In this document: positions 25,048 to 60,200 of the stretch, piece by piece
Position numbering within the stretch: position 1 is the first letter of the stretch
Layout of the letters: each line of letters starts with the position of its first letter
Origin: Spinacia oleracea
Taxonomy: Eukaryota > Streptophyta > Magnoliopsida > Caryophyllales > Amaranthaceae
Direction: 5' to 3'
DNA length: 64,000 nt
Assembly: GCF_020520425.1 (NCBI RefSeq)
Contig: NC_079487.1
Location: 8,851,501 to 8,915,500 of the forward strand
The notes under the pieces: model-generated
What the model was told of the DNA's origin: nothing
Databases searched by the model: none
The model's input: the letters and a program-made list of their open reading frames with translations, nothing else
Made by a program: the position numbers and the translations under genes

Positions 25048-25059
25048 CTACGCTTAATT

Positions 25060-25868
25060 TGTTATAAATGAATGACCTTTTATGCTTGAATATAATGTTG
25101 ATTTTTATGACAATTTGATGTTTGAATAATGAGAAGAAATAATTAAAGAAATTAAAAACACACATAAAAATTTAAGGTGGTTCACTCTTCAATAAGCTAC
25201 ATCCCCATGGGGGAGGGTTTGGAGCTTGTATTATTCTTCAATGGAGAAAGGATTACAAAGAGGAATTCTCAAATGTGAAAAGGAGATCATTCTATGTATG
25301 CTTAGATCTAGGGTTTCAACCTCACTTGTGTTTCTCTTTCTTTTAATTCTGAACATCTCATTACATTTGGTATTTATAGTGTTAGACATCAAACCAATCT
25401 AAGGGACAAGAAAAGGCCACGTCGATTGTACCTTGCGGAGAAGAAAACAGATTACCCGCAGAGTTCGGTCGAACCTTTTAAAGGGTTCGGCCGAACCAAG
25501 GTCAGGTTCGGCCGAACTTACCCAAAGTTCGGGCGAAACCTCCAAAAACATAGCTAATGATCTCTTCAGGTTCGGCGAACCACCTAAGAGTTCGGCCGAA
25601 CTTTCAGTAGGTACGGCCGAACCTACAGCAAGTTCGGCCGAACTTCCCCTGCTGCATGACAGCTTCTCATAAAACAGTCATAACTCACTCATTTCTCATC
25701 CAAAATGAGCTTATGACCAGGCGTTGGAAAGCTATTGAGCCAAGCTTTCACCTCCAACTTGAATCAACTCAATCTAATGAGTAGATCATGAGATATGTCC
25801 ATTTGAAGTCAGACCATCCACTATAACACCCTAACATCTTTCAAGGAAGATTCGAGGCACACATAACA
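25060..25868 (-). repeat. 3' LTR of copia A copy 1
   Basis: 809 bp. A TATAAATA on the minus strand (25371-25378) is the probable LTR promoter. From about 25460 to 25655 it holds a cluster of about eight GTTCGGCCGAAC-type palindromes, some slightly diverged. Confidence 0.93.
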
Positions 25869-25958
25869 ATTCTCCACCTTGACTTGAATCCTCCATACTT
25901 CCTCATAATGTAATACCAAACTATACTCCAAACACACTCCCAACAAGGCCTTATGGGC

Positions 25959-28900
25959 TTACATCGACCATGGAGAAAGACCAACTAAGTCCACACACAA
26001 AGTGAACTTAGTTGTCGGCAAAGGCTTTGTCAACATGTCGGCGGGATTCTCCTTGGTACCAATCTTCTTCAAGAGCAATTCTTTCTTAGCTATCACATCT
26101 CGAACAAAGTTGTACTTGATGTCAATGTGCTTGGTTCTCTTGTAGAATGTGTTTTGATTCTTAGCCAAATGTATGGCACTTTGACTATCACAAAACACGG
26201 ACACCAAGCTTGAACATGGACTAAACTCTCCCACAAGACCCTTGAGCCACTTTGCTTCTTTGAATGCTTCGGTAATGGCCATAAACTCGACCTTCGTAGT
26301 TGAAAGAGCTACAACATCTTGTAGCGTTGATTTCCAACTCACGGCCGTACCACCCAAAGTAAAGACATAGCCAGAAGTAGATTTTCGGTCATCCAAATCA
26401 CCTCCATAATCCGAATCACAAAAGCCTTCAAGTCCGTTTGCATTTCTACCAAACTCAAGCCAAAAGTTTGAGGTACCCTTCAAGTACCTCAACAACCACT
26501 TCACGGCTTCCCAATGGACCTTTCCCGGTCTTGACATATACCGACTAACCATACTCACCGCATGAGCTATATCTGGTCTTGAACACACCATGGCATACAT
26601 CACACTTCCAACCGCACTAGTGTATGGAATGTGAGTCATGGACTTTTCTTCTTCCTTGGATTGAGGACTAAGCTCCTTGAGAGCTTAAAGTGAGAACTCA
26701 AAGGAGTGGAAATCGGTTTTGCATGCACCATGGAGAAGCGCTCAAGCACCTTCTCAATGTATCTCTTTTGACTAAGATACAAAACTCCCGCATTCCTATC
26801 ACGAATAATCTCCATACCAAGAATCTTCTTGGCTTCACCAAGATCTTTCATATCAAACTCACTTGCCAACAACTTATTCAAGTTGTCAATCTCAATCATA
26901 TTCTTGTAAGCCACCAACATATCATCTACATATAAGAGCAAGTAGATGAAGGAACCACTCACAAGTTCTTTGTAATAGACACAACTATCATAAGAGCTCC
27001 TTGTGAAATCATGTGCCAACATGAACGAATCAAATCGTTTATACCATTGCCTGGGAGATTGCTTCAAGCCATACAAGAACTTTAAAAGATGACACACATG
27101 ATTTTCCTTTCCTTTGTCCTCAAAACCTTCCGGTTGCTTCATGTAGGTCTCCTCCTCCAAATCCCCATGGAGGAATGCGGTCTTCACATCAAGTTGGTGT
27201 ATGTAACTCCAAGTCTTCCATAGCTACCAAGGCAAGCAACACCCTTATGGATGAGTGTTTCACAACCGAAAAAAATACTTCATGAAAGTCAACGCCTTCA
27301 ATTTGTGTGAAACCTCTTGCAACAACTCTTGCCTTGTAGACGGGACCGCCCGATTCCGGTGTACCTTCCTTCTTCTTGTACACCCACTTGCACCCAACAA
27401 TTCTTTTGCCTTTCGGGGCAATGCATAAGCTCCAAGTATTGTTCTTGTTCAAGGACTCCATTTCTTGTTCCATGGCCATCAACCACTTGCCGGCATCATT
27501 TAGAGACATTGCTTCCTTGAATGAACAAGGATCATCATTATCAGTCTCCACTTGACTTGCAACGGAGAGAGCATATTGGACATAATCACACTCCTCAATG
27601 TATCTACTTGGAGGCTTGATTGTTCTCTTTGCTCTTTCTTCGGCAATAGATTTCTTTTGAGCTTGTGGTGTCGCTTCACGAGGTCTCCTTGATGAGGGAC
27701 CATCTTCATGTGAATGCTCATCTAGCTCCACCTCCTCCTCGGTATCATGGTGTGAACCTACATCATTGCAAATAGAAAGCTCCTTTCCCGGAGTGATCAT
27801 ACAATTTTCATCAAAAAACAATATCTCTAGAAGTTATGACTCTTCTAGATTGGTTACACCATACTCTATAACCTTTAACTCCTAAACCATAGCCAACAAA
27901 AATACATTTTTTAGCTCTAGGTTCAAGTTTACCATCACTAACATGAATATAAGCCGGACAACCAAATAATCTCAAACTAGAATAATCAACGGGTTTTCCG
28001 TACCATACCACAAGAGGTGACTTGAAGTCAAGAGCCGAGTGAGGAGAGCGATTCACCAAGTAACAAGCCGTTGAAACGGCTTCCGCCCAAAAAGATTTTC
28101 CCAAATTTGCTTGTGAAAGCATACATCTTGCCCTCTCTAAGAGAGTTCTATCCATTCGCTCCGCAACCCCATTTTGTTGAGGCCTACCCGCACAAGTTCG
28201 ATGCCGCACAATTCCATGCTTGAGACAATACTTCAAGAACTTCTTCTCTACAAACTCTAGACCATTATCGGTCCTCAAGGTTTTGATCTTTTTCTCGGTC
28301 TTCTTTTCAATCATGGTCTTCCAATCATGGAACACATCAAAGATATCATCTTTATGCTTTATAAAGAACACCCAAACCTTCCTACAAAAGTCATCAATTA
28401 TAGTGAGAAAATAATTACAACCACCAATCGAAGGAACTCTAGAGGGACCCCACAAATCCGAATGGTTGTATTCAAGTATCCCTTTGGTGTTGTGTACGGC
28501 GGTTTGAAGCTAACCCTCTTGTGTTTACCAAACACACAATGCTCACAAAAGCCAAGGCTTCCAAGTTTCAAGCTTCCAAAACAACCTTGCTTGCTAAGCT
28601 CCGACATACCATGCTCCCCCATACGGCCAAGTCTCAAATGCCATAACTTGGTTTCACTATCACTCATAGTACCCGTGGAAACATTTGCCGAGCCTACCAT
28701 GGTGGATCCTTGCAATGAGTATAAGCTACCCACTTTGGCACCCTTCATCAACACAAGAGCACCTTTCACAACCTTCATTACTCCACCTTCCGCTATGCAC
28801 TTACAACCGTTAGTGTCAAGAGTGCCAAGAGAGATCAAATTCTTCTTTAGCTCCGGAACATGACGAACTTTAGTTAAGGTTCTCACAATACCATCAAATA

Positions 28901-29949
28901 TTTTGATGGCTACCGTCCCAATTCCAATCACCTTGCACGTTGCATTGTTTCCCATGGTGACATTACCTCCATTATACTCCTCATAGGAGCTAAATAGATC
29001 CTTGTTGGGGGTAATATGAAGCGAGCAACCCGAATCCAAAATCCATTTATCCTTACCCTTGATTCTTCCATGAGTGGCAACCAAAGCACCACTATCACTA
29101 TCGGTATCTACAAAGCTAGCCTCGGCGGTAGCATGAGGTTCTTTGCCCTTTCCGGACTTACCATCACCTCCCGATTGTTTCTTTTGCCACTTCCAACATT
29201 CCGAATAATGTGGCCTTTAATGTGACAATAATTGCAAGACTTGTTACGGTTAGGATTCGGTTTCTTTGACTTGGACCGACCCCTATTCTTTCCCCCATTA
29301 CCACCACTACTAGTAGAAGTCTTCTCATGATTTCTATTCCTCACAAACAAGCCATCATTGGAGTTATTTGATGATTTAGAAATTAATTGATTATCAATTA
29401 AGTCCCTTAGGGTCAAAGCATCTCTAACATCATCAATACTCAAGTCATCTCTACCATACAAGATAGTTTCACGAAAATGTTTATAGGATGGTGGTAATGA
29501 ACATAACAAGTAAATTGCAAGATCCTCATATCTAAAACAACATCAATATTTTGAAGGTCCATAACAATCGAAAAGAACTCATCTAAATGAGACTTAAGAG
29601 AATTACCTTCCTCAAGCCGAAGATCATAGAGCCTACTCTTGAGTAGTAGACGATTGGTGACACTTTTAGCCATATAAAGAGCCTCCAACTTCGACCATAG
29701 ATCATCGGCGGTTTCCTCCTTGGCAACTTCCCTCAATACTTCATTCGAGAGGCAAAGTTGTATAGCCGACAAAGCCTTCAAATCAATCTCCTCCCACTTC
29801 TCTTCCGACATGGTAGTGGGTTTCTTATCCTTCCCTTCAAGTGCCTTGTGCACACCATTTTGTATCAAAATAGCTTTCATTTTCAATTGCCAAAGGCCAA
29901 AGTTAATTGACTTATCAAACTTCTCAATATCCAACTTCATTGTCGACAT
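25959..29949 (-). pseudogene. copia A gag-pol pseudogene, copy 1
   Basis: Blocks in at least six frames. Gag 29949-29440 (DUF4219/UBN2-like, FDKSINFGLWQLKMKAIL) shifts frame near 29500. The next block (29509-29108) carries CNYCHIKGHIIR, and a frameshift falls inside this zinc knuckle. Protease ILDSGCSLH and GAG-pre-integrase LWHLRLGRMG lie in 29084-28398. Integrase is in 28455-27811 (TIIDDF, TDNGLEF, and the Glu block QQNGVAERMDRT). RT is in 27821-27189 and 27187-26636, with the active site YVDDM. RNase H is in 26639-25959 and has STTKVEF where STTEAEY is usual. It cannot be translated as one polyprotein. Confidence 0.93.
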
Positions 29950-30000
29950 GAGTATTCAATACTCCCCAAGAAATCAAACAAACAACCCAAACACAACCTT

Positions 30001-30014
30001 AGCTCTTGATACCA
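30001..30014 (-). promoter_or_regulatory. primer-binding site of copia A copy 1
   Basis: Minus strand TGGTATCAAGAGCT, two bases inside the 5' LTR: the initiator-Met tRNA primer type. Confidence 0.85.
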
Positions 30015-30016
30015 AT

Positions 30017-30819
30017 TGTTATAAATGAAGGACCTTTTAGGCTTGAATGTTGATTTTTATGACAATATGATGTTTGAATAATGAGAAGAAATAATTAAAG
30101 AAACTAAAAACACACACAAAGATTTAAGGTGGTTCACTCTTCAATGAGTTACATCCCATGGGGGAGGGTTTGGAGCTTGTATTACTCTTCAATGGAGAAA
30201 GGATTACAAAGAGGAATTCTCAAAGGTGAAAAGGAGAGAATTCTATGTATGCTTAGATCTAGGGTTTCAACCTCACTTGTGTTTCTCTCTCTTTTAATTC
30301 TGAAAATCTCATTACATTTGGTATTTATAGTGTTAGACATCAAACCAATCTAAGGGGCAAGAAAAGGCCACGTCGATTGTACCTTGCGGAGAAGAAAACA
30401 GATTACCCGCAGAGTTCGGTCGAACCTTTTAAAGGGTTCGGCCGAACCAAGGTCAGGTTTGGCCGAACTTACCCAAAGTTCGGGCGAACCTCCAAAAACA
30501 TAGCTACTGGTCTCTTCAGGTTCGGCCGAACCACCTAAGAGTTCGGCCGAACTTCCAGTAGGTTCGGCCGAACCTCCAGCAGGTTCGACCGAACTTCCCC
30601 TGCTGCATGAAAGTTTCTTGTAAAATAGTCATAACTCACTCATTTCTCATCCAAAATGAGCTTATGACCAGGCGTTGGAAAGCTATTGAGCCAATCTTTC
30701 ACCTCCAACTTGAATCAACTCAATCTAATGAGTAGATCATGAGATATGTCCATTTGAAGTCAGACCTTCCAGTATAACACCCTAACATCCTTCAAGGAAG
30801 ATTCGAGGCACACATAACA
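30017..30819 (-). repeat. 5' LTR of copia A copy 1
   Basis: 803 bp, with the same ends and the same palindrome cluster (30412-30600) as the 3' LTR. Lacks a 6 bp stretch near its outer part that the other LTR has. Confidence 0.93.
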
Positions 30820-30824
30820 TAATT

Positions 30825-31480
30825 TATTGTGAATCATGTCTAATAAAGAACGTCTAACACATTTCTTCTAATTTATTTTGGCATAGTTTTTAGGGTTATT
30901 ACAGGAAAAATATCAAATTGATGTCGTTAATAGAAGTTATGCTTAAATAATGTGATTTTACTTTAATATTCACTTTAAAAAAATGTTACTTTAATTTAAA
31001 AAATGATTACTATACCTAAAAATTGATGTTTAAAATTGCATATAAACACTAATGAACAATAAAGATCGATATATGTAAACGTGTTGTTAGAGAAAATTAT
31101 TGACTAAAGATCCACACTAATTATATTGTGGATTAGGTCCACGCAGGAATAATCTTTGTATTGAATAAGTTGGATCCATTAAATTATTCAAACAGGTAGA
31201 AATAATGGGAGTTACAAGTGTTGTATAACATGGGTGACACGATGAATCGATGATAATGGATCGACACACGGTGTGATGGCATGTTTATATGATAACATGA
31301 GAGTCATGCACCCGTGTTAGATAACACATATAATAGTTTGATCACAAACACAATTACAAGGATACCCTTAGAAATACTCGTATGGCTACATTTGACACTT
31401 CCCTTTAGACTATGAAACATGAACATCCTTCAACAACGATTTGAGACGCACATATAACAATTACAATTATAAAAGCAGAA
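30825..31480. other. no recognisable gene
   Basis: AT-rich spacer between copia A and the next MITE; nothing that I can support. Confidence 0.5.
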
Positions 31481-31911
31481 ATTTTTGTGTAAGACCGTTT
31501 AACGGTTAGACCAATTTTTTGGTACTAACTAAACTAGTGTAAAACATAACTAAAAGTAATAAAATCAAAACTAATTGAATAACAAAATAGTTAAGGTATA
31601 AAGATAAATAGTAAAATTTATGAGTCGAATAGTTATTATTTTTGAACAAACTTATTATTAACTAAAACTCATAAAATCTTAACTAATTGATCTCATTGCT
31701 TAACTAATCAGTTTCATTGTTTAACTAATTGGTTTAGTGCTTAACTAATTAGTTCGGTTACATAACTAATTGGTTTCGTTGCATAACTAATTGGTTTCGT
31801 TGCTTAACTAATTGAATTTCAGACTTAACTAATTGGTTTCAGTGATTTACTAATTAGTTGTTCCAGTGTATAAAAGTGGTCTAATCGTTAGACCGTCTTT
31901 CCTAAAAATTT
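31481..31911. mobile_element. short AAGACCG-family element, unit 1
   Basis: Left end aatttttgtgtaagaccg; right end, inverted, aaatttttaggaaagacgg, followed inwards by gttagacca / gattagaccac. Its interior is an inverted, shortened version of 12880-13100, including the cttaactaattggttt repeats. About 430 bp, no coding capacity. Confidence 0.75.
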
Positions 31912-32000
31912 GTATTGTAAAAGACATCTAAGCACCAGAAGAAAAAAAAAAAAAAAACAATTATAAAAGACATCTTCCATGGAAAGGTAATAAACTAATA

Positions 32001-32271
32001 CTACCTCTGTTCCTAAATGATCTTTACGGTTACTATTTGCACGGTAATTAAGGAATTTTGGTGAACATGTGATGGTGGGGTAACAAATGGAAAATGAGTG
32101 GCTATAAATTGTCCAACAATGTGAGTGGGTGGAAACTAATATTAAAGTATTGTGAGTGGGTAAGTTATGGTGGGCCAAATAAGAGTAAAAATGGAATAAA
32201 GTAGGAGTGTAAAGAACTTTCAGGAACGGACTAAAACGGAAAGCGTAAAGAACTTTTAGGAACGGAGGTAG
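32001..32271. mobile_element. Stowaway MITE, unit 1
   Basis: Ends CTACCTCTGTTCCTAAA and, inverted, CTACCTCCGTTCCTAAAAG, with TA on both sides (31999-32000, 32272-32273). 271 bp. Confidence 0.9.
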
Positions 32272-32273
32272 TA

Positions 32274-33664
32274 ATATGGTAGAATATTATGGAAACCGTC
32301 CAAAAGCGCTCAAGGAGGGTGAACACTTAATAGCCTGCATACAAGGAAGGATAATAACTGATTGAGTGCCTAGTTTTTGTCTCTAAATTAGATAGTTATT
32401 ACAGACCGGGGGAGGGGTTTGCAAAATACATACTCCGTAGTTAATTAGTTATATATAACAACAGGTCCGTTCTACTATTCGCAACTTCGCAAGCCTTGCT
32501 AGGTAGTTTGCTACTGCATTGGTGTTTCTTCCTTGAAATCTTCAAGTGCTCTCTACATTTCAAGATCATAGTGGTTAGTCTACCTTTGTTGTAACTGTAC
32601 TCTTGAATTTCTCTGACAGTCTCGGCACAAACTAATGCAGAGAGTGATATTGTGATATGCTAATAAATCTGAGTAGCAAATATTCTGAACTCTTAGACAG
32701 TGTCATACACTCTCTTTACCCGTGTTCACTTAGAAACTTGGCTCAAGCCGCTCAACTACTCTACTCTAAGCTGATATTTTATGTTCTGATGAATTGCAAT
32801 CTTTGAATTTTGTCAAAAGGTTACAACAAAAGATGTATATTAGTCCTCTTCTGTCAACACGAATCATGGTCACTCTTTTGTAAGTGAATACTTGAAATGT
32901 TTACGCTGCAAGGCTTGAAATGAGTGAAATCTATATTTAGAAACAAAATCATAAAACTAGAAGGTGTTCCGTGTTTGTAGAGAATGTGTGTCCTAGGTAC
33001 TTTCACGCTAGTGATCTGCTGTTGCTTCTACTCACAAACCAAACAAAAAAAAACCAAACAGAAAAATTAACAGTTTCACCGATCAAATTATGGTCAATCA
33101 TATCCTAAACTGCTACAAATCCACTAAATGAAGAAAGAAAACACATTTTAGCAAACGTGACCTATATTCATGAGGGCTCTTCACTCTTCAGTATGATGTA
33201 ACAGTACTTAGCTATACAGCAATAAAATTACTGCCTATACATGCAACAACTAACCCTGTCTCTCCAAGCTACTTTAGATGATTATCCGTGAGTAGAGTGC
33301 TTTATTGGGTCTAGTCTCATACAAAATAACTACGGGTATGTCATCTGACTTTCAATATCTAATGGGATCATGATGGCTAGTAGACCATTACAGAGGTTCA
33401 CAACCAAAAATTATGGAATCAGAAATCAGAATTTCATTACCAACAAGTCAAGAACTACTACTTATAGCAACTGAAGTACTACCTATACAAGAAGCTTCAT
33501 TTTCCATGCAGCAGCAACACTTAATATTAGCTATTCTGCTCAAACCAGAAAAGTTGAGTGTCAGGAGCAGTTTCGCATTGACTACAGCACCTCCAAGGGA
33601 ATAACCAATTACATGAGAAACAACCTACAATAAAGCTCAAATTAACACAAAACAGCAGACACAG
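32274..33664. other. no recognisable gene
   Basis: About 1.4 kb downstream of the F-box pseudogene. A 63 aa ORF (33413-33604, plus) has no recognisable domain. No transposon ends are seen. Confidence 0.5.
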
Positions 33665-34852
33665 TCAAACCTCATTATCGTCCTTGCTGAAGTTGATTGT
33701 TCCAAAAGGCGAAGTTAGGGTTTCCACGAAACTTTCTGCACGAATATCCAATGTATAATCAAGAGAGCGAGCATCCCCTTGTTCTGGACGGTCGTTACTT
33801 ACGTCAAATATCTTAAACAGCCATAAACTCCTTACCAAAATCTTTCCTGTGGGAATGGATGTATAGAAACGCCAGTCTCCAAAATTGACAGAAAACAAAA
33901 ACTCCCAAGAATTCCGGTCATCATAATGTTTCAATGTCCAAACATCATCTACCATATGAGATTTGTGGCAATACAACGATAAGCACCCATTTCTCACAAA
34001 GAAATCTGCTCCAAAATACTCATTAAGAAAATCTAACCATGGATATTCTTTCCATTCTTCATTGACCAAATCAAAAGCACAAATGCGCTTGTCCTCCCAC
34101 TCATGGCCCAAACAACCTGGATGCCAGTACATAATATCATTCATCACTGTCGTCTTGCAACTAAAATTTTTATACACATCATAATAATCATCAAGATGGC
34201 AATATCTTTTCCAAATTCCAGTCCTCATTGAAAACACACAGAAGTGCACATATTGTTCATTATAATTACGAACACGAGACGAATAGAGCAACAATGTTGT
34301 AGTCATCAATGGAAGATGCATAAACAAACCAATAACCCAGAGCAAGTTCAGATTTACCAGGGTTAGTGATCTCACGGTTCTGATGCGTAACAGGATTGCA
34401 GATTGATAAAAACCCACATCTTCTATAACGAGAACCATAATTTCTTTTACTTTTCAGAACATTTAAATTGTACAAGCAAACCAACCCATTACAACAACCC
34501 ACAAATCGTACATCTCTTCTTCCTCCAATATCGATTTTTTCAAGATCTTTCAAATTGTTGAATTCATCATAAGGCAATAACAGGAACTTGGTTTCCGGCG
34601 AAAATAGGAGAAAATGATGCCTGGAAGTTAAACCGAGGTAGTACTTTGCGAATTTAGGATCAGAAACAGTAGAATGCCAAAATGTTGAAAGGACTTTGAA
34701 ACGAATTAGGGTTTTACCGGCAATCTTGGCAGGATGAGCTCTACTATCAGGTGATCAGGGAGAGTTGGGGTTGATGTTTCATTGACGATTTCGCGATTTG
34801 CATCAACCATGTCACTATCATCAGGGTCATCAGCATTCTTCAATTTCGCCAT
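33665..34852 (-). pseudogene. F-box protein pseudogene, unit 1 copy
   Basis: ATG at 34852 (MAKLKNADD...), then the F-box LPDHLIVELILPRLPVK. There the frame is lost: gtaaaaccc has one base fewer than the homologous gtaagaaccc at 14758-14767, giving a stop. The F-box-associated part continues in another frame (FVGCCNGLVCLY, FLSICNPVTHQNREITNP, YASSIDDYNIVA). A second break, loss of two A's near 34279 relative to unit 2, separates it from the C-terminal part (34270-33665: KRICAFDLVNEEWKEYPW, WTLKHYDDRNSWEFLFSV). The first lesion is shared with unit 2 and the second is private, which dates it after the duplication. Confidence 0.9.
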
Positions 34853-34909
34853 TTTAGGAAAGAGCAAGTAAAGGAGTAGGACATAAGAGTGACAGGAGAA
34901 ATTTCAAAA

Positions 34910-35176
34910 CAATCCCCTTGATTGATAGATTAAGTGGCATTTTCGTAATTACAATAAGCAATATACAATCTAGAAATTGCAATGTACAACATTTTTGATA
35001 TTTAAAAAAATTAATAATAAAAGAAAATGATTTTAATATAAAAAGATATTATACACTTAAATATGTAGATTGTATATTTTGATATTTCCCCTCAAAAAAA
35101 AATGTAGATTGTATATTTTGATAATTTATTTATGAAAATACCCCTTGATATGTTTACTTGCCAATCAAGGGGATTG
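34910..35176. mobile_element. small MITE with CAATCCCCTTGATTG ends, unit 1
   Basis: CAATCCCCTTGATTG at the left end and its exact inverse CAATCAAGGGGATTG at the right end, about 267 bp apart, with further pairing inside (attttcgtaa / aaaataccccttgat region). No clear target duplication. It lies just upstream of the F-box start. The unit 1 copy carries a 39 bp internal tandem repeat (35080-35115 region) that unit 2 lacks. Confidence 0.6.
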
Positions 35177-35396
35177 ACTGGTTGGAGCTCGACAGTGACA
35201 GCGTAAGTGTAGGTAATGAATGGACTTATGGTTGCTCTTATATACGAATACGAAGTACATCATTCAAATAAGGCAAAAAAAAAATTACTTCCTCCGCATT
35301 TATTGCACCATCTCCTTTTTTTGCCATATTTTTTAGAGTGGAAAAAGAGGTATAAAATTACTTTATTGCTCATATACTTAGTTGTTTAAAGCAAAA

Positions 35397-35806
35397 TCTA
35401 TACCTAGTCTATACCTAGGATAACCATACATGATTAGATGACACGTGTCACCTTAGATGACATGTGTCACCTCCTTCATTCATCTATGTATTTTATATTT
35501 TTTAATTTTTTTAATTTTTCATGTTGTTGTTTGTTATACGAAGCATTTCTTCAACACATCTCCCTCATCCAACATCAATTTACCATTGAATTCATATTCA
35601 ACCTCTACTACTTTATCTCCCTCTTTAACACTTAATATTGATTCACCATATAATTTATATATTTTTTCAACTTAGAAATTTGATCACCTCTATATAAATC
35701 ATATACCCTAACTAAAATCACAACCCCTCAATAAAATTAACACTTTAAAAAACGGCTTAACAAACACTATATAATTGTCCGTTCTTTGAACGGGCTCCAA
35801 AACTAG
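35397..35806 (+). mobile_element. non-autonomous Helitron, 410 bp, unit 1
   Basis: Starts TCTATACCTAGTCTATACC after an A and ends with the hairpin ccgttc-ttt-gaacgg, 9 nt, then CTAG (35803-35806) before T. No target duplication and no coding capacity. Confidence 0.82.
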
Positions 35807-36319
35807 TTGGAAAGTAAAATCCAAGTGGATGAATTTGTCGTTACTATTCATGTAAAGTAAGCTTATTTTTACTGTTCATGTACGTACAGTGGATGTATCT
35901 GCTATTAGTGTTCTACTTTTACAGACATTTCATTGGAAAAGTAAGTTTTCCCACCAAAAATAACGCTTGAAATCTAAAGAGAACAAATATGTTCTGAATT
36001 TCAAAACACCCACCAAAATTGAAAACTGAAAAATTCAAAACTCCCACTAAAATAAAAATCTGAAAATTTACCTTTTAGTGGAAAATTTACGAACCCACTT
36101 TCACTAAAAAAAGTTGTGAGATATCAGAAAAATATCTGATGATCTCTCATAAATTTACAAAATGTTTAATTCTCTCTCCTAAAATTACAAAGTTAATTTT
36201 TCACAAAAAGAAAACACACTAGAGCTTTAACATTTTGCACAATCACATCACACACGGGCACACAGCACGTAGGCTTCTCTTTTGTTGTCTTCACGGCACA
36301 CACTAACACACTAGACAGG

Positions 36320-37162
36320 ATGGATTATGAAGATATGGAAGAACTTATTACAATCTGGAACAAAGTCAAGTATTGGAGGATGGATTTGAGAATTTTGAGG
36401 TAACCTTCTCTTCTAAATCTGAATCTGACAGTGATAATGAAACTGATTTAGAAAATAGTGCAGAAAATTATGTATAATAATAAAAAATTCAAAGAGACCC
36501 CACATCTAAGATGTTAGGTCTTAGTTTGTAAAAAAAAAAAAAAAAAAAAAAATAAAGAGACCCCCTATCTATATATGAGGTCTTAACTGCTTTAATAAAT
36601 AAATAAAAAAAATATTCAAAGAGACCTCCTATCCTACTTATGGGGTCTGAATATTTTAAAAAACAGATCTCCCATCTCTAATAAAGGGTCTCTTTCCCTT
36701 CTAAAATATTTTCACCAGCTTTTACATAAGAGACCCGCTTTCTTACGTTGGGGGTCTCTAGATTTTAACAAACAGACCCCCTCTCGATGAGGGGGTCTCT
36801 TTATCAAAGAGACCTGTGAGATAGAGACCCCTTGAAAGGAGATCTCTTAAGCCATTTTGGAAGGGTCTCTTTGCCCTTTTTTGTAGTAGTGACCCAATTA
36901 CCATAGTAATAGAATTAGATGAAGTAGTTAATGTCATGTCAACAAAAAAGGGGGAAAACCTTTGAATTAACTGACCTAGATCGACAAGAAATAGTTCAAA
37001 CACTTATCTTAGGACAACAAGGGAGAAGGGTTCAATTAGGAGGTAAATTTATGTCAAAATATGCAATCAAAAGTTGAGCAACTAAATTCAAAGTAGAGAG
37101 GTCCACTATTGGTAGGATTTGGGCTAATGCAGGAAGTCAAATTAGGAAAAAGAGAATCATTG
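36320..37162 (+). pseudogene. mariner-like transposase N-terminus, unit 1, broken
   Basis: Starts MDYEDMEELITIW. After a frameshift comes an acidic stretch FEDFEVTFSS...SDSDNETDL. After the MITE insertion follows the DNA-binding helix-turn-helix region of plant mariner-like transposases: LTDLDRQEIVQTLILGQQG, then ATKFKVDRSTIGRIWANA in the unit 2 copy. It has an in-frame stop after AIKS, the MITE inside it, and is cut off by the copia B LTR. The catalytic DD39D region is not present. Confidence 0.65.
36475..36891. mobile_element. CACTA-type MITE, left end eroded, unit 1 only
   Basis: 417 bp absent from unit 2. The right end, inverted, reads CACTACTACAAAAAA, the CACTA terminal motif. The interior has many inverted and direct gagaccccc/gggtctctt words as subterminal repeats. 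The left CACTA terminus and 13 bp of host sequence (gaaattaacgcaa in unit 2) are missing, so a small deletion followed insertion. It contains a poly(A) run at 36532-36551. Confidence 0.75.
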
Positions 37163-38534: not shown

Positions 38535-38549
38535 GTGGTATCACGAGCC
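38535..38549 (+). promoter_or_regulatory. primer-binding site of copia B (unit 1 copy)
   Basis: gtggtatcacgagcc directly after the LTR end: initiator-Met tRNA primer type, one base different from that of element L. Confidence 0.85.
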
Positions 38550-49200: not shown

Positions 49201-49472
49201 TCGAGAGGCAAAGTTGTATAGCCGACAAAGCCTTCAAATCAATCTCCTCCCACTTCTCTTCCGACATGGTAGTGGGTTTCTTATCCTTCCCTTCAAGTGC
49301 CTTGTGCACACCATTTTGTATCAAAATAGCTTTCATTTTCAATTGCCAAAGGCCAAAGTTAATTGACTTATCAAACTTCTCAATATCCAACTTCATTGTC
49401 GACATGAGTATTCAATACTCCCCAAGAAATCAAACAAACAACCCAAACACAACCTTAGCTCTTGATACCAAT

Positions 49473-50275
49473 TGTTATAAATGAAGGACCTTTTAGGCTT
49501 GAATGTTGATTTTTATGACAATATGATGTTTGAATAATGAGAAGAAATAATTAAAGAAACTAAAAACACACACAAAGATTTAAGGTGGTTCACTCTTCAA
49601 TGAGTTACATCCCATGGGGGAGGGTTTGGAGCTTGTATTACTCTTCAATGGAGAAAGGATTACAAAGAGGAATTCTCAAAGGTGAAAAGGAGAGAATTCT
49701 ATGTATGCTTAGATCTAGGGTTTCAACCTCACTTGTGTTTCTCTCTCTTTTAATTCTGAAAATCTCATTACATTTGGTATTTATAGTGTTAGACATCAAA
49801 CCAATCTAAGGGGCAAGAAAAGGCCACGTCGATTGTACCTTGCGGAGAAGAAAACAGATTACCCGCAGAGTTCGGTCGAACCTTTTAAAGGGTTCGGCCG
49901 AACCAAGGTCAGGTTTGGCCGAACTTACCCAAAGTTCGGGCGAACCTCCAAAAACATAGCTACTGGTCTCTTCAGGTTCGGCCGAACCACCTAAGAGTTC
50001 GGCCGAACTTCCAGTAGGTTCGGCCGAACCTCCAGCAGGTTCGACCGAACTTCCCCTGCTGCATGAAAGTTTCTTGTAAAATAGTCATAACTCACTCATT
50101 TCTCATCCAAAATGAGCTTATGACCAGGCGTTGGAAAGCTATTGAGCCAATCTTTCACCTCCAACTTGAATCAACTCAATCTAATGAGTAGATCATGAGA
50201 TATGTCCATTTGAAGTCAGACCTTCCAGTATAACACCCTAACATCCTTCAAGGAAGATTCGAGGCACACATAACA
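49473..50275 (-). repeat. 5' LTR of copia A copy 2
   Basis: 803 bp, essentially identical to 30017-30819, including the palindrome cluster (49868-50056). Confidence 0.93.
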
Positions 50276-50280
50276 TAATT

Positions 50281-50936
50281 TATTGTGAATCATGTCTAAT
50301 AAAGAACGTCTAACACATTTCTTCTAATTTATTTTGGCATAGTTTTTAGGGTTATTACAGGAAAAATATCAAATTGATGTCGTTAATAGAAGTTATGCTT
50401 AAATAATGTGATTTTACTTTAATATTCACTTTAAAAAAATGTTACTTTAATTTAAAAAATGATTACTATACCTAAAAATTGATGTTTAAAATTGCATATA
50501 AACACTAATGAACAATAAAGATCGATATATGTAAACGTGTTGTTAGAGAAAATTATTGACTAAAGATCCACACTAATTATATTGTGGATTAGGTCCACGC
50601 AGGAATAATCTTTGTATTGAATAAGTTGGATCCATTAAATTATTCAAACAGGTAGAAATAATGGGAGTTACAAGTGTTGTATAACATGGGTGACACGATG
50701 AATCGATGATAATGGATCGACACACGGTGTGATGGCATGTTTATATGATAACATGAGAGTCATGCACCCGTGTTAGATAACACATATAATAGTTTGATCA
50801 CAAACACAATTACAAGGATACCCTTAGAAATACTCGTATGGCTACATTTGACACTTCCCTTTAGACTATGAAACATGAACATCCTTCAACAACGATTTGA
50901 GACGCACATATAACAATTACAATTATAAAAGCAGAA
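50281..50936. other. no recognisable gene (duplicate of 30825-31480)
   Basis: Unit 2 copy of the AT-rich spacer. Confidence 0.5.
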
Positions 50937-51367
50937 ATTTTTGTGTAAGACCGTTTAACGGTTAGACCAATTTTTTGGTACTAACTAAACTAGTGTAAAA
51001 CATAACTAAAAGTAATAAAATCAAAACTAATTGAATAACAAAATAGTTAAGGTATAAAGATAAATAGTAAAATTTATGAGTCGAATAGTTATTATTTTTG
51101 AACAAACTTATTATTAACTAAAACTCATAAAATCTTAACTAATTGATCTCATTGCTTAACTAATCAGTTTCATTGTTTAACTAATTGGTTTAGTGCTTAA
51201 CTAATTAGTTCGGTTACATAACTAATTGGTTTCGTTGCATAACTAATTGGTTTCGTTGCTTAACTAATTGAATTTCAGACTTAACTAATTGGTTTCAGTG
51301 ATTTACTAATTAGTTGTTCCAGTGTATAAAAGTGGTCTAATCGTTAGACCGTCTTTCCTAAAAATTT
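50937..51367. mobile_element. short AAGACCG-family element, unit 2
   Basis: Duplicate of 31481-31911 with the same ends and interior repeats. Confidence 0.75.
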
Positions 51368-51456
51368 GTATTGTAAAAGACATCTAAGCACCAGAAGAAA
51401 AAAAAAAAAAAAACAATTATAAAAGACATCTTCCATGGAAAGGTAATAAACTAATA

Positions 51457-51727
51457 CTACCTCTGTTCCTAAATGATCTTTACGGTTACTATTTGCACGG
51501 TAATTAAGGAATTTTGGTGAACATGTGATGGTGGGGTAACAAATGGAAAATGAGTGGCTATAAATTGTCCAACAATGTGAGTGGGTGGAAACTAATATTA
51601 AAGTATTGTGAGTGGGTAAGTTATGGTGGGCCAAATAAGAGTAAAAATGGAATAAAGTAGGAGTGTAAAGAACTTTCAGGAACGGACTAAAACGGAAAGC
51701 GTAAAGAACTTTTAGGAACGGAGGTAG
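51457..51727. mobile_element. Stowaway MITE, unit 2
   Basis: Duplicate of 32001-32271, with TA flanks at 51455-51456 and 51728-51729. Confidence 0.9.
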
Positions 51728-51729
51728 TA

Positions 51730-53120
51730 ATATGGTAGAATATTATGGAAACCGTCCAAAAGCGCTCAAGGAGGGTGAACACTTAATAGCCTGCATACAA
51801 GGAAGGATAATAACTGATTGAGTGCCTAGTTTTTGTCTCTAAATTAGATAGTTATTACAGACCGGGGGAGGGGTTTGCAAAATACATACTCCGTAGTTAA
51901 TTAGTTATATATAACAACAGGTCCGTTCTACTATTCGCAACTTCGCAAGCCTTGCTAGGTAGTTTGCTACTGCATTGGTGTTTCTTCCTTGAAATCTTCA
52001 AGTGCTCTCTACATTTCAAGATCATAGTGGTTAGTCTACCTTTGTTGTAACTGTACTCTTGAATTTCTCTGACAGTCTCGGCACAAACTAATGCAGAGAG
52101 TGATATTGTGATATGCTAATAAATCTGAGTAGCAAATATTCTGAACTCTTAGACAGTGTCATACACTCTCTTTACCCGTGTTCACTTAGAAACTTGGCTC
52201 AAGCCGCTCAACTACTCTACTCTAAGCTGATATTTTATGTTCTGATGAATTGCAATCTTTGAATTTTGTCAAAAGGTTACAACAAAAGATGTATATTAGT
52301 CCTCTTCTGTCAACACGAATCATGGTCACTCTTTTGTAAGTGAATACTTGAAATGTTTACGCTGCAAGGCTTGAAATGAGTGAAATCTATATTTAGAAAC
52401 AAAATCATAAAACTAGAAGGTGTTCCGTGTTTGTAGAGAATGTGTGTCCTAGGTACTTTCACGCTAGTGATCTGCTGTTGCTTCTACTCACAAACCAAAC
52501 AAAAAAAAACCAAACAGAAAAATTAACAGTTTCACCGATCAAATTATGGTCAATCATATCCTAAACTGCTACAAATCCACTAAATGAAGAAAGAAAACAC
52601 ATTTTAGCAAACGTGACCTATATTCATGAGGGCTCTTCACTCTTCAGTATGATGTAACAGTACTTAGCTATACAGCAATAAAATTACTGCCTATACATGC
52701 AACAACTAACCCTGTCTCTCCAAGCTACTTTAGATGATTATCCGTGAGTAGAGTGCTTTATTGGGTCTAGTCTCATACAAAATAACTACGGGTATGTCAT
52801 CTGACTTTCAATATCTAATGGGATCATGATGGCTAGTAGACCATTACAGAGGTTCACAACCAAAAATTATGGAATCAGAAATCAGAATTTCATTACCAAC
52901 AAGTCAAGAACTACTACTTATAGCAACTGAAGTACTACCTATACAAGAAGCTTCATTTTCCATGCAGCAGCAACACTTAATATTAGCTATTCTGCTCAAA
53001 CCAGAAAAGTTGAGTGTCAGGAGCAGTTTCGCATTGACTACAGCACCTCCAAGGGAATAACCAATTACATGAGAAACAACCTACAATAAAGCTCAAATTA
53101 ACACAAAACAGCAGACACAG
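51730..53120. other. no recognisable gene (duplicate of 32274-33664)
   Basis: Unit 2 copy of the spacer downstream of the F-box pseudogene. Confidence 0.5.
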
Positions 53121-54310
53121 TCAAACCTCATTATCGTCCTTGCTGAAGTTGATTGTTCCAAAAGGCGAAGTTAGGGTTTCCACGAAACTTTCTGCACGAA
53201 TATCCAATGTATAATCAAGAGAGCGAGCATCCCCTTGTTCTGGACGGTCGTTACTTACGTCAAATATCTTAAACAGCCATAAACTCCTTACCAAAATCTT
53301 TCCTGTGGGAATGGATGTATAGAAACGCCAGTCTCCAAAATTGACAGAAAACAAAAACTCCCAAGAATTCCGGTCATCATAATGTTTCAATGTCCAAACA
53401 TCATCTACCATATGAGATTTGTGGCAATACAACGATAAGCACCCATTTCTCACAAAGAAATCTGCTCCAAAATACTCATTAAGAAAATCTAACCATGGAT
53501 ATTCTTTCCATTCTTCATTGACCAAATCAAAAGCACAAATGCGCTTGTCCTCCCACTCATGGCCCAAACAACCTGGATGCCAGTACATAATATCATTCAT
53601 CACTGTCGTCTTGCAACTAAAATTTTTATACACATCATAATAATCATCAAGATGGCAATATCTTTTCCAAATTCCAGTCCTCATTGAAAACACACAGAAG
53701 TGCACATATTGTTCATTATAATTACGAACACGAGACGAAAATAGAGCAACAATGTTGTAGTCATCAATGGAAGATGCATAAACAAACCAATAACCCAGAG
53801 CAAGTTCAGATTTACCAGGGTTAGTGATCTCACGGTTCTGATGCGTAACAGGATTGCAGATTGATAAAAACCCACATCTTCTATAACGAGAACCATAATT
53901 TCTTTTACTTTTCAGAACATTTAAATTGTACAAGCAAACCAACCCATTACAACAACCCACAAATCGTACATCTCTTCTTCCTCCAATATCGATTTTTTCA
54001 AGATCTTTCAAATTGTTGAATTCATCATAAGGCAATAACAGGAACTTGGTTTCCGGCGAAAATAGGAGAAAATGATGCCTGGAAGTTAAACCGAGGTAGT
54101 ACTTTGCGAATTTAGGATCAGAAACAGTAGAATGCCAAAATGTTGAAAGGACTTTGAAACGAATTAGGGTTTTACCGGCAATCTTGGCAGGATGAGCTCT
54201 ACTATCAGGTGATCAGGGAGAGTTGGGGTTGATGTTTCATTGACGATTTCGCGATTTGCATCAACCATGTCACTATCATCAGGGTCATCAGCATTCTTCA
54301 ATTTCGCCAT
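53121..54310 (-). pseudogene. F-box protein pseudogene, unit 2 copy (one frameshift)
   Basis: ATG at 54310 and F-box LPDHLIVELILPRLPVK, then the same one-base loss as in unit 1 (gtaaaaccc near 54172), which gives a stop at about codon 50. Downstream, a single 300-codon frame (from about 54035 to 53121) covers the whole F-box-associated domain without further breaks: FVGCCNGLVCLY, ASSIDDYNIVALFSSRVRNY, KRICAFDLVNEEWKEYPW, WTLKHYDDRNSWEFLFSV. That frame has no good ATG at its beginning. Unless a one-base sequencing error explains the lesion, the F-box and the substrate domain cannot be made as one protein. Confidence 0.88.
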
Positions 54311-54367
54311 TTTAGGAAAGAGCAAGTAAAGGAGTAGAACATACGAGTGACAGGAGAAATTTCAAAA

Positions 54368-54595
54368 CAATCCCCTTGATTGATAGATTAAGTGGCATTT
54401 TCGTAATTACAATAAGCAATATACAATCTAGAAATTGCAATGTACAACATTTTTGATATTTAAAAAAATTAATAATAAAAGAAAATGATTTTAATATAAA
54501 AAGATATTATACACTTAAATATGTAGATTGTATATTTTGATAATTTATTTACGAAAATACCCCTTGATATGTTTACTTGCCAATCAAGGGGATTG
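54368..54595. mobile_element. small MITE with CAATCCCCTTGATTG ends, unit 2
   Basis: Duplicate of 34910-35176 without the 39 bp tandem repeat; 228 bp between the same inverted ends. Confidence 0.6.
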
Positions 54596-54815
54596 ACTGG
54601 TTGGAGCTCGACAGTGACAGCGTAAGAGTAGGTAATGAATGGACTTATGGTTGCTCTTATATACGAATACGAAGTACATCATTCAAATAAGGCAAAAAAA
54701 AAATTACTTCCTCCGCATTTATTGCACCATCTCTTTTTTTTGCCATATTTTTTAGAGTGGAAAAAGAGGTATAAAATTACTTTATTGCTCATATACTTAG
54801 TTGTTTAAAGCAAAA

Positions 54816-55225
54816 TCTATACCTAGTCTATACCTAGGATAACCATACATGATTAGATGACACGTGTCACCTTAGATGACATGTGTCACCTCCTTCATTC
54901 ATCTATGTATTTTATATTTTTTAATTTTTTTAATTTTTCATGTTGTTGTTTGTTATACGAAGCATTTCTTCAACACATCTCCCTCATCCAACATCAATTT
55001 ACCATTGAATTCATATTCAACCTCTACTACTTTATCTCCCTCTTTAACACTTAATATTGATTCACCATATAATTTATATATTTTTTCAACTTAGAAATTT
55101 GATCACCTCTATATAAATCATATACCCTAACTAAAATCACAACCCCTCAATAAAATTAACACTTTAAAAAACGGCTTAACAAACACTATATAATTGTCCG
55201 TTCTTTGAACGGGCTCCAAAACTAG
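54816..55225 (+). mobile_element. non-autonomous Helitron, 410 bp, unit 2
   Basis: Duplicate of 35397-35806, with the same TC start, hairpin and CTAG end before T. Confidence 0.82.
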
Positions 55226-55737
55226 TTGGAAAGTAAAATCCAAGTGGATGAATTTGTCGTTACTATTCATGTAAAGTAAGCTTATTTTTACTGTTCATGT
55301 ACGTACAGTGGATGAATCTGCTATTAGTGGTCTACTTTTACAGACATTTCATTGGAAAAGTAAGTTTTCCCACCAAAAATAACGCTTGAAATCTAAAGAG
55401 AACAAATATGTTCTGAATTTCAAAACACCCACCAAAATTCAAAACTGAAAAATTCAAAACTCCCACTAAAATAAAAATCTGAAAATTTACCTTTTAGTGG
55501 AAAATTTACGAACCCACCTTCACTAAAAAAGTTGTGAGATATCAGAAAAATATCTGATGATCTCTCATAAATTTACAAAATGTTTAATTCTCTCTCCTAA
55601 AATTACAAAGTTAATTTTTCACAAAAAGAAAACACACTAGAGCTTTAACATTTTGCACAATCACATCACACACGGGCACACAGCACGTAGGCTTCTCTTT
55701 TGTTGTCTTCACGGCACACACTAACACACTAGACAGG

Positions 55738-56176
55738 ATGGATTATGAAGATATGGAAGAACTTATTACAATCTGGAACAAAGTCAAGTATTGGAGGATG
55801 GATTTGAGGATTTTGAGGTAACCTTCTCTTCTAAATCTGAATCTGACAGTGATAATGAAACTGATTTAGAAAATAGTGCAGAAAATTATGTAGAAATTAA
55901 CGCAAACCCAATTACCATAGTAATTGAATTAGATGAAGTAGTTAATGTCATGTCAACAAAAAAGGGGGAAAACCTTTGAATTAACTGACCTAGATCGACA
56001 AGAAATAGTTCAAACACTTATCTTAGGACAACAAGGGAGAAGGGTTCAATTAGGAGGTAAATTTATGTCAAAATATGCAATCAAAAGTTGAGCAACTAAA
56101 TTCAAAGTAGATAGGTCCACTATTGGTAGGATTTGGGCTAATGCACGAAGTCAAATTAGGAAAAAGAGAATCATTG
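55738..56176 (+). pseudogene. mariner-like transposase N-terminus, unit 2
   Basis: Duplicate of the transposase fragment, here without the MITE, so the acidic N-terminal stretch runs on through NSAENYVEINANPITIVIEL. One more frameshift precedes LTDLDRQEIVQ, a stop follows AIKS, and the helix-turn-helix ends at ARSQIRKKRI next to copia B. Only the DNA-binding part is present. Confidence 0.65.
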
Positions 56177-57539
56177 TGAAGGAAATAATGCCCTTGGTCC
56201 AAGTATGCATTCAACGATAAGTCTAATAAATGCGATTCAGTATTAATTAACAAGTTTATAATTCAGTGAGATCAAGTGAGCTGAATGTCTAGCTAGAGGC
56301 CGCTTCAGTTCAAGTGGAATTAATGATATTAATCCACAGCTTACTCTTGACTGAACCCGTAGGGTCACACAAATAGTACGTAAACGGATCAAGTATTTAA
56401 TGGCATTAAATACTCTATCTATGGATATTCGGAATCGACGGATCTTGGTTTCAGTGGGAGCTGAGATCGTCACAAGCAAGTGAATACTCCGGAAACGATG
56501 ATATTGCCGGAAACGGAAATATGGATCGTATCGGAAATATAAATATTATCCAAGTCGTAGATGTTGCCGGAAGCGGAAACATGGTACGTATCGGAAAATA
56601 TTATTAATATTGCCGGAATCGGAAATATTGCCGGAAACGGAAATATTGTCAGAATCGGAAATATTATTGGAATCGGAAAATAGTTCCGGAAACGGAAATA
56701 TTAAATATTTGTTCGAAACGGAAATTAATTCTGGAATCGGAAATATTAAATATTGTTCGTATCGGAAATGAATTCCGGAACCGGGAATTTAATCGGAAGC
56801 GTATCGTACGAATAAGCATCGGACGAGGCCTGTCGGACGAAGGCCCAACACGAAGCCAGGCCATCGCCCAGCAAGCAAGACGCGCGCCAACGCCCAGCCC
56901 AAGGCAGCGCCAGGCCCATCGCAAGGCAGGCCCAGCGCGCCAAGGTGTGGCTGCGTAGCGTGGGCTGCGTGGGCCGAGCGCACGCGTGCGGGCGCCCTCG
57001 TGGCTCCGCGCGTGTGTGTGTTTGTGTCCATGCACAATTCCTAAATCTATTAGGATTTGGTGTATGATTAAATTCCTATTCCTAAAAGGATTATTTAATT
57101 AATTAGAGTCCTTGTAGGATTCTAAGTTTAATTAAATCGCATCCTACTAGGATTCCAATTCCCTTTCCAAACCTCTATAAATAAAGGCCTAGGGTCATAA
57201 TTTATGCACACGGGATTGAAGTATTCTAAGGGTAAGTTTTGAAAGAAAAATAAGCCAAACACTTGCAAACACTTAACCGAATTTCCTAGTAACCTTAAGG
57301 GCGATTCTAGTTGGTCTAACTTGAGGCGGATCCGGACGTACTGTGGACTATCTACGGAGGGACGACATTTGGAGTCCTAAAGACATGTTCTTGTTCGGTT
57401 CGGGCGCAGCTAGGGAGGGCACGCTACAAAGTGTATGCTCCTAAATTATGCTAAATGATTATGTGTAAATAATATGCTTTCCTGGCTTTATGGTTTTTCC
57501 GCATGATTTATGTTTTGTCATATGAATCATAACCTAACA
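56177..57539 (+). repeat. 5' LTR of copia B (unit 2 copy), 1363 bp
   Basis: Same structure as 37163-38534: cggaaatatt repeats (56500-56800), a GC-rich block (56855-57020) and TATAAATA near 57176-57183. Confidence 0.92.
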
Positions 57540-57554
57540 GTGGTATCACGAGCC
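57540..57554 (+). promoter_or_regulatory. primer-binding site of copia B (unit 2 copy)
   Basis: gtggtatcacgagcc directly after the LTR. Confidence 0.85.
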
Positions 57555-60200
57555 TCTTATTATTTTCATAATCTGAATTGCATAAACATGGTTAAATATT
57601 ACAAATTTGCAAGAATTAAAAGGGGTGATTAATTTTCGTAATTGTTAATTAATTGCAAATTGCGTTTATTTAATTATATGTACGCAATTTTTCGGCAGTT
57701 TCTTCGTTACTCATCCAAATCGAGTGATTTTTGTGTCAATTCCGCATGTAAAACCCAGAATTCTCAAATTCGAAGCCTAACTATGACTTTTCGGAGGTTT
57801 TAGTTTTTCGAACGCAAAATTTTGTAAATTTAAGATGTTAAATTAAATATTTGCGATTCTTGTTGTTAAATCTTGAATTTTTGATTGACCTACTGTATAT
57901 GTTTAACAAGTTTGAATGCCTAGCCTTGTTAATTATGCAATCTAATTTGTAATTATGATTAATTTGTTGAAAATTGGAATAATTTAGAATTAATTTGATT
58001 TTCATAATTAGTTAATAATTTAATTAGATACCTATGATTAAAAACCACCATAAAAATTGTAAATTTGTGTTAAATTTTAAATATTTATGACCTAGACTTG
58101 AATCCATGTTAATCGGAAATCAATTAATTAATAAATTTTCGATTTTTCGCCCTAAAATTATGAAATTAATATGAGTTATTAATTTGTCATTAAATTTGAA
58201 AATAAATTTTTTAATTTTTATGCGATTCGCTCATATAACTTGCACGCACAAAGCAATGGACGCTACGTGTCACCCTTAAGGGGTGTTGTATAGTGCGGGC
58301 ATGCGACGACGAGCAAGGGAGCTCGTCGCCCATGCGGTACGAATGCAATGAGCAAGGCTATGGTGCACGAGCACAAGGCAGCAGCCCTGCCTTGTGTCGT
58401 GTGCTGAGTGCGATGGGCGAGTGGGCAAGGGCGAGAGCAAGGCAGCGAGCAGTCGCGTGCAACGCGCACTGCCTCGCGCAGCGATCGAAGCCTCGCGCGC
58501 AGCGAGCGCTGGCTCGCGTGCGACGAGCGCTACGAAGCATCGAAGCCTCGCGCGCAGCAAACGCTGGCTCGCGTGCGACGAGCGCTGGCGCGCGCCCAGC
58601 GATGGTGAGCAGCGAGCGTGCTTCGACGATGCCTTGCGATGGTGAGCAGCAGCAGATGCGACGCAGCACATAGGCTGCGCGCACATGGCCAGCGATGGCT
58701 GCGTGCGTGTGGCCTATGGCTGTGCGTTGCGTGGTGATGTTGCGTGCCTTGAGTTACGATTATATCGTTTTAAAATTTTAATTTGAAATTTTCAGTTTAC
58801 GTAATTTTAATTAATTTTAAAATTAATAATTTAAATTATTTTCTTGGATTTTAATTTTGAATATTATAATTATAATAAATTTCATTTATTCTAATTATTT
58901 TACTAAAATTAAAATCATGAATTAATTTAAATACGATTGAAAATAAATTAAATATGTGGATTCAATTATAAATTTATATGAGCTTTAAATTTTAGTTAAA
59001 TTTGTATGTTTCCGGGTAGACTAGAAATACATTTTTATGTTTAAAATAAGTAAAGCATATGAATTTATTGGTTTAAGTGGGAGCCCTTTTAGTCATAAAC
59101 TCATGATTAGGTCTACAAATCCTTAAGGTTAAAACAACTTGATTAGAATTAATAAGGACTGAATAATTTGTAGATTATTGGTGCCCTTGATTAATTGCTG
59201 CAAATATTTATGTGATGCATAACGTGTTTTACTAACCAGCTATGTGGGCCATTCATGATAATGAATGGGTGAATGGTATATATTGTATATGTACTGTTTT
59301 GCAGATTATGAAGTGACTAGTATGGCCAGAATAGGATAGAAAATATGGTCTGCGTACCATTAATTTGAATGTAATTGGTCTAAAGTACCAAAATTGTTTT
59401 TCAATTCAAATATGGTCTGCGTACCATCAAATAGTTGTAATTAGTTTAATTATAGCTTATCCTATTTGAAGAAAATGGTTCCTCCCACGGAGATTTTCGA
59501 GACGGACTTTGAAGTTGAAGCTTCAAGATGAAGTCGGGCCATACTAGATCACATTTATCTTATGCATGCTTTAAGTTATTTATTGCTTTAAATATGTCTT
59601 AATTATGCATGAGATTGTGGCTTGATTATGTTGCATGATTAAGGATTTTAGTTCACTTAAAATCTAACCAACATAGTAAGAGCCTTAAGTTCCAAACTTA
59701 AAAAATTGAGTTAAAAAGTGCCATGCCAAAATATACACTTGCTTGGATATCCTTTACATCAATCTAGTAATAGTTTTCGCTTAGCGAGGTGTTACTTATT
59801 GGTCCTAAAGGGGCAAGGTACACAAATAATTGTGAGTACATGTTAGTTTTGGTGAAACTCAACGATATAAGTAAGGAGTCCTTTTATGTCGTGGAAAAAT
59901 CGATAGGTTTACCTAATAAGTTCTTAGACGTACCTATCAACCAAGAATAGTTTCTAGACTATTAGCAAAAGGCTTTTGCTTACCTAAGATGTTTTAGGAT
60001 TAAGTCGACAAACTGTGCTTAGTTCTTCAATGATTTTAGGATCTTGGAATCATTTTATTCACACCTGCCGGAACAATAAAATCGAATAAAATGCTAATAA
60101 CTTGTTTGAATTGCATGATTGCTTTAAATTTCAAGTTATTACTCATGATAAATGTTTAGACTTTGCATGCTTCAATGTATGTTTTAATTATTGTTTATAA
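57555..60200 (+). other. copia B leader
   Basis: An AT-rich leader shared with element L, with the gactagtatggcca and tggtctgcgtacc blocks at about 59310-59430 and a cgaggtgttactt...cctaaagg block at about 59788-59810. It contains the GC-rich tract listed separately. No gene. Confidence 0.7.
58268..58740. other. GC-rich tract with internal tandem repeat in copia B leader
   Basis: A sharply bounded GC- and CpG-rich segment starting exactly at the duplication breakpoint. It includes a tandem pair of about 55 bp (atcgaagcctcgcgcgcagc at about 58485 and again at about 58539). ORFs on both strands here look like compositional artefacts. Confidence 0.7.

Follow-up and report, generated by a model that had tools for sequence, protein, structure and literature searches.

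Introduction

In rice, tandem duplications have been attributed to the repair of adjacent nicks or breaks; the reported set is enriched at lengths of 50-200 bp, and its longest perfect member measures 4.9 kb (PMC7971508). For rice copy-number variants, a share of 52.98% is assigned to non-homologous recombination with micro-homology or with none, and 0.48% to non-allelic homologous recombination (NAHR) (PMC4812662). Putative conversions in human segmental duplications are reported with a mean of 6.26 kbp (PMC10172114), and the 377 gene conversions of a rice survey of coding genes only with an average of 130 nt and a maximum of 1,237 nt (PMC2277409). Here we analyze a window of 64,000 nt from spinach (Spinacia oleracea, contig NC_079487.1; C1:8851501-8915500), in which a 14-kb stretch with an F-box-type gene and transposons is, in the assembly, copied once in tandem across the word CTACG. 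The two copies, unit 1 and unit 2, share a long central block without a single substitution. From the sequence, we consider it likely that the locus arose by a microhomology-guided tandem duplication whose centre was homogenised later, most likely by gene conversion.

Tandem duplication across CTACG

Comparison of the window with itself reveals that 25048-39262 recurs at 39258-58267, with order and orientation kept. Self-comparison and alignment together delimit unit 1 at 25048-39257 (14,210 bp) and unit 2 at 39258-58262 (19,005 bp, of which 5.24 kb are an insert of its own). The units are adjacent, lie in the same orientation, exceed 1 kb, are more than 90% identical and can be aligned end to end; they form a tandem segmental duplication. 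The global alignment returns 65 differences, nine of which represent misalignment at the edge of a 419-bp insert and were dropped before counting, leaving 56 substitutions in 13,748 aligned columns. The same 56 sites are recovered when both pieces are aligned separately. The difference in unit length is due mostly to the CACTA-type insert of 5.24 kb in unit 2, and the 419-bp insert is present in unit 1 only. An earlier note on this DNA, made by reading the sequence, had placed the units and all three breakpoints exactly and had seen two units matching in order and orientation; the alignment that it proposed, now run, matches them throughout. Its size of 14.2 kb applies to unit 1; the insert makes unit 2 longer.

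CTACG is read on the plus strand at the left breakpoint (25048-25052), at the junction (39258-39262) and at the right breakpoint (58263-58267), the last of these within a repetitive element, here element B. The breakpoint homology is exactly 5 bp, with T as the preceding base at the left edge and G at the right edge, and no identity at the breakpoints is long enough for homologous recombination. The word occurs 23 times on the plus strand of the window, and random joins between the flanks yield a match of at least 5 bp in 0.7% of 400,000 draws. The earlier note had drawn attention to CTACG at all three places, where it is indeed present. Any tandem duplication with a 5-bp microhomology must show its word thrice, and the triple occurrence therefore counts as one coincidence (chance about 0.7%) and not as three.

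Single-copy order before the duplication

The genome searched comprises 894,210,420 bases in 242 contigs; the best 40 candidates were scored in each search, and the copy counts given here are lower bounds. A 301-bp probe across the junction finds its full match at one of the 40 scored places, which is the junction itself. The other 39 match probe bases 2-163, on the element-B side, and end after CTACG, the right edge of unit 2 being one of them. The left flank (24200-25047) has no second match in the genome among the 40 scored of 138 candidates, and the match of the left-flank query to unit 2 starts at query base 849, which is position 25048. The F-box segment is found in two copies (best 40 of 1,511 candidates scored).

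At the right breakpoint, we compared the window with seven other element-B loci (L002-L008). Right-flank sequence follows the breakpoint in five of the seven (L002-L005 and L007), to 59,764 or further. L006 matches 58079-59810 with a break at 58478-58513, and the match of L008 stops at 58282, where a long terminal repeat (LTR) follows. The ancestral order thus continues at both outer edges in the assembly. With a left flank that has no second match and with other B copies running through the right breakpoint, the single-copy order is left flank, unit and rest of B. The flanks had been described earlier as unique; this stands for the left one, but to the right of 58267 the window continues with the body of element B, which is high-copy.

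The same comparison turned up, at L008:1677, a B copy whose leader (to 58282) is joined directly to the start of an LTR, as if most of the body had been deleted.

A block without substitutions

Along 29014-34879 (5,866 bp; counterpart 48470-54337 in unit 2) the units show no substitution at all, and their only difference is a 2-bp indel at 34281. The contrast with the remainder of the alignment is strong, at 0 in 5,866 against 56 in 7,882. When substitutions are placed uniformly, the longest substitution-free run in 200,000 simulations reaches 3,531 bp, compared with the 5,866 bp observed. Set against the neighbouring stretch of the copia A retrotransposon alone (11 in 2,037), the block gives a conditional binomial probability of 3e-7. 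The block of identity is too long for the divergence that surrounds it, a pattern expected of a gene conversion tract. A two-state segmentation, whose two substitution rates were picked after seeing the data, finds the block with all three switching rates tried, and a second one at 27085-28708 (1.6 kb) with one of the three. The 305-bp island between the two blocks holds four differences. Constraint or purifying selection is a poor explanation, as 1.8 kb of copia A lie within the block, and the 25060-27084 part of that element differs by 0.5%.

Divergence outside the block is 0.54% in 25048-27084, 0.71% in 34880-37162, 0.82% in the B leader and 1.61% in the B LTR (22 substitutions in 1,363 bp). 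Substitution rates of 7e-9 and 1.3e-8 per site per year date the duplication to 208-592 thousand years from the first three stretches and to 628-1,166 thousand years from the B LTR; the block is dated to under 20-37 thousand years (95% limit). Dating from one convenient stretch is misleading, since different stretches suggest ages anywhere between zero and about 1 million years. The earlier note had counted about nine substitutions in about 1.75 kb and had called the duplication recent. The exact count is 9 in 1,770, yet this sample is not representative, given 0 in 5,866 bp and 22 in 1,363 bp of the B LTR. The term recent suits the duplication with the qualification that divergence is 0.5-1.6% outside the block; the identical block, which had been overlooked, would be far younger.

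Ancestral states of the substitutions

Relatives elsewhere in the genome provide the ancestral state for 48 of the 56 substitutions; the derived changes are balanced, at 25 on the unit 1 branch and 23 on that of unit 2. For the separate stretches, the changes in unit 1 and unit 2 number 4 and 7 in 25083-27084 (28 relatives), 1 and 3 in 28709-29013 (six relatives, four of them covering the sites), 6 and 1 in 35896-37132 (with the outgroup locus L060 as sole relative), and 14 and 12, with two ambiguous, in element B (14 loci and the B 3' LTR). Sites 34880, 34886, 35133 and 35208 were left out of the polarisation, and 35315 and 36099 are not settled by L060. The derived states at 25263, 26076 and 26333 are present in a minority of the relatives (3, 5 and 4 of 28, respectively). 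We considered whether other copies of the B and copia A families had converted these elements ectopically; this is unsupported, for the derived states are mostly absent in the relatives.

Insertions private to each unit

CACTA-type transposons are recognised by their CACTA terminal motif and by a 3-bp target duplication. The insert present only in unit 2 (41027-46269) has both: each of its ends starts with CACTAGTAGAAAAAACCC on its own strand, in terminal inverted repeats, and the target duplication ATA is found at 41024-41026 and 46270-46272. Unit 1 presents the empty site for this 5.24-kb insert. The longest of the ten open reading frames (ORFs) listed in it, the 166-aa one that was scanned, has no Pfam match, which would fit a non-autonomous copy.

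The insert present only in unit 1 (36473-36891, 419 bp) is a truncated CACTA-type element that retains one end, CACTACTACAAAAAAG. It belongs to a different CACTA-type family from the unit 2 insert, and 37 other places match it among the scored candidates; the three of those that were read all reach beyond the left end of the unit 1 copy. The empty state is seen both in unit 2 and in L060 (C1:118.57 Mb, 85-92% identical). Our first alignment had suggested a 404-bp deletion in unit 2. We rejected this reading: L060 agrees with unit 2 here, which makes the difference an insertion in unit 1.

Element B

The earlier note had named this element copia B and had placed the right breakpoint inside its leader. 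The breakpoint does lie there; the element itself is an LTR element, mostly non-coding, and its remnant of a copia-type reverse transcriptase is weak. The body is high-copy, and the RVT_2 remnant has an E value of 0.00089, below Pfam's cut-off. In unit 1, element B (37163-39257, plus strand) consists of the 5' LTR (37163-38534) and 723 bp of leader, where it is cut by the junction; the end of the LTR was inferred from where matches stop. In unit 2 and the right flank it extends over 56177-63240 on the plus strand, with the 5' LTR from 56177 and the start of the 3' LTR at 63064-63240. An inverted second B element (63241-64000 and the next 8 kb, locus L009) truncates this 3' LTR at 63240. A 4.5-kb inverted repeat pairs 58549-63063 with 66594-71056 (window numbering continued) at 93.6% identity.

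Divergence in the B LTR at 37163-38534 is two to three times that of the other three main stretches outside the block, and 19 of its 22 substitutions are transitions; our guess would be methylation-driven decay. A diverged relative of 35298-37162 is found at L060:2393-3444, where the match stops at the start of B, and it may show the site before B was inserted.

Copia A, the F-box-type gene and neighbouring features

Copia A occupies 25060-30819 on the minus strand of unit 1, with LTRs at 25060-25868 and 30017-30819 and the target duplication TAATT at 25055-25059 and 30820-30824. Its copy in unit 2 (39270-50275, minus strand) is split by the CACTA-type insert. Pieces of gag, integrase and reverse transcriptase are found on the minus strand in separate frames. 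The two LTRs differ at 32 of 802 positions in unit 1 and at 33 of 802 in unit 2, a divergence that places the insertion of copia A before the duplication.

The F-box-type beta-propeller ORF is intact in unit 2 (53121-54212, minus strand, 363 aa), and in its unit 1 copy (33665-34754, minus strand) the 2-bp indel at 34281 disrupts the frame. The 363-aa ORF matches Pfam PF24750 with an E value of 1e-06, and the Pfam scan recognised no F-box domain as such in it. In the closest relatives elsewhere, which are about 44% identical, the frame is uninterrupted; the broken frame of unit 1 is therefore either derived or an error. An F-box ORF at 14687-15460 (plus strand), an older local relative, shares about 45% identity with the ORF of the units along part of its length.

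Other repeats and ORFs accompany these features. A high-copy repeat at 31988-32275 recurs with 280-290 bp at 97-100% identity in at least 38 other scored places of the genome. In the left flank, 12755-13098 matches 31515-31856 of unit 1 (also in unit 2) in inverted orientation, over about 345 bp at 92%, and this match overlaps 21-bp tandem arrays. The left flank further contains a reverse transcriptase fragment (RVT_1, perhaps LINE-type) at 5191-5679 and a PPR-repeat ORF at 8683-9300.

Discussion

The starting segment would have been single-copy, made up of 7 bp of flank, copia A with its TAATT duplications, the F-box-type gene, and the B 5' LTR with 723 bp behind it. A single direct tandem duplication would then have joined the downstream end in the B leader to the upstream end beside copia A via CTACG, either through end joining of the polymerase-theta type between sister chromatids or through a template switch during replication, two routes that sequence cannot separate. 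Both units would afterwards have collected private mutations and one CACTA-type insertion each, and unit 1 would have lost its intact F-box frame. Later copying between the units may have covered at least 5.9 kb (29014-34879), and possibly a separate 1.6 kb (27085-28708) as well, by interlocus gene conversion or by two successive unequal exchanges. The duplication, its junction, the ancestral order and the uneven divergence can be read directly in the assembly, and from this pattern we infer both the repair pathway and the conversion. The same sequence would also result if the segment had formed an extrachromosomal circle at CTACG that was then reinserted by homology.

LTR elements lie at both ends of the duplicated unit and might suggest NAHR, an unequal exchange between long repeats at the unit ends. 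The breakpoint sequence contradicts it: a comparison of 20048-25100 with 57763-63263 contains no long match, the best being 36 bp at 83%, and no second match to the left flank was found among the 40 scored of 138 candidates. We rejected NAHR, to which we attach almost no probability, and side with the earlier note in preferring a microhomology join, given a 5-bp match and no long flanking repeat found. We also rejected CTACG as the target duplication of an integrating element, which at 5 bp would have the length usual for copia, since copia A has its own TAATT inside the unit and the CTACG match would in any case need to be present at the source beforehand. The earlier note's own alternative, two haplotypes falsely joined in tandem by the assembly, appears very improbable. 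The junction is a clean 5-bp one, no extra copy of segment or junction is present among the scored candidates from the 242 contigs, and both units carry private mutations and an insertion not shared with the other; in addition, the matching inbred line Monoe-Viroflay is reported with only a homozygous k-mer peak (PMC8668906).

A true join of two diverged haplotypes, by unequal exchange between homologues, would make the divergence and the insertions older and the block shared by descent. Patchy divergence is typical of two recombining haplotypes, each unit carries an insertion of its own, and spinach is described as outcrossing, with a nucleotide diversity (pi) of 1.33e-3 and with linkage disequilibrium down to an r2 of 0.2 within 600 bp (PMC8668906). 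Measured by this pi, which is genome-wide and maybe too low for repeats, divergence outside the block (0.5-1.6%) is 4-12 times as high, and zero differences in 5,866 bp have a chance of about 4e-4. We regard an inter-haplotype origin as unlikely.

Several points weigh against a microhomology-guided duplication with a homogenised centre. The duplication could be real and the identical block an assembly artefact, in which read correction or polishing erased true differences. Long-read correction is able to mix near-identical copies. The matching spinach assembly is reported as built from PacBio continuous long reads with Canu, Arrow and Pilon (PMC8668906). Differences nevertheless persist on either side of the block and the 2-bp indel persists inside it, and reads from sheared DNA of about 20 kb should be anchored by the 5.2-kb insert 2.2 kb to the left (in unit 1 coordinates) and by the 0.4-kb insert 1.6 kb to the right; we would not expect the block to be an artefact. 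The microhomology is suggestive only, because 0.7% of random joins produce a match of 5 bp or more. Divergence varies outside the block too (0.5-1.6%, and the 305-bp island), which implies a mutation rate or a history that is not the same along the whole unit, and the polarisation of 35896-37132 (6 against 1) is lopsided, if small and based on one outgroup. Unlike the conversions of the rice survey, which covers genes only, the spinach block is far longer than 1,237 nt (PMC2277409).

Under the homogenisation that we favor, a single conversion-like event of at least 5.9 kb may have copied the F-box gene whole between the units within about the last 40 thousand years, with one of the copies broken again since then; we hold this possible and stop just short of calling it probable. 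If true, the event would be over four times as long as any conversion in the rice survey of genes (PMC2277409). The locus provides a natural record of a tandem duplication, with a known single-copy order, an exact junction, and polarised mutations and private insertions on both branches. The homogenised block would show two events of different age within one pair of units.

Compared with the rice duplications ascribed to nicks or breaks (PMC7971508), the spinach locus is similar in its direct tandem copy, its clean junction and the lack of a long flanking repeat; it is unlike them in its unit of 14.2 kb and in being no longer perfect. With the non-homologous class of rice copy-number variants (PMC4812662) it shares short breakpoint homology, while that set spans every kind of copy-number variant and not direct tandem copies alone. 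Since both rice studies, as reported, make tandem duplications and non-homologous joins common in plants, the spinach duplication itself is an ordinary kind of plant mutation. The block differs from those of conversion surveys in that it is seen in one genome only, and either unit may have been the donor. It shares with interlocus gene conversion in human segmental duplications a long identical block inside diverged duplicates, and the human mean of 6.26 kbp is near the length observed here (PMC10172114).

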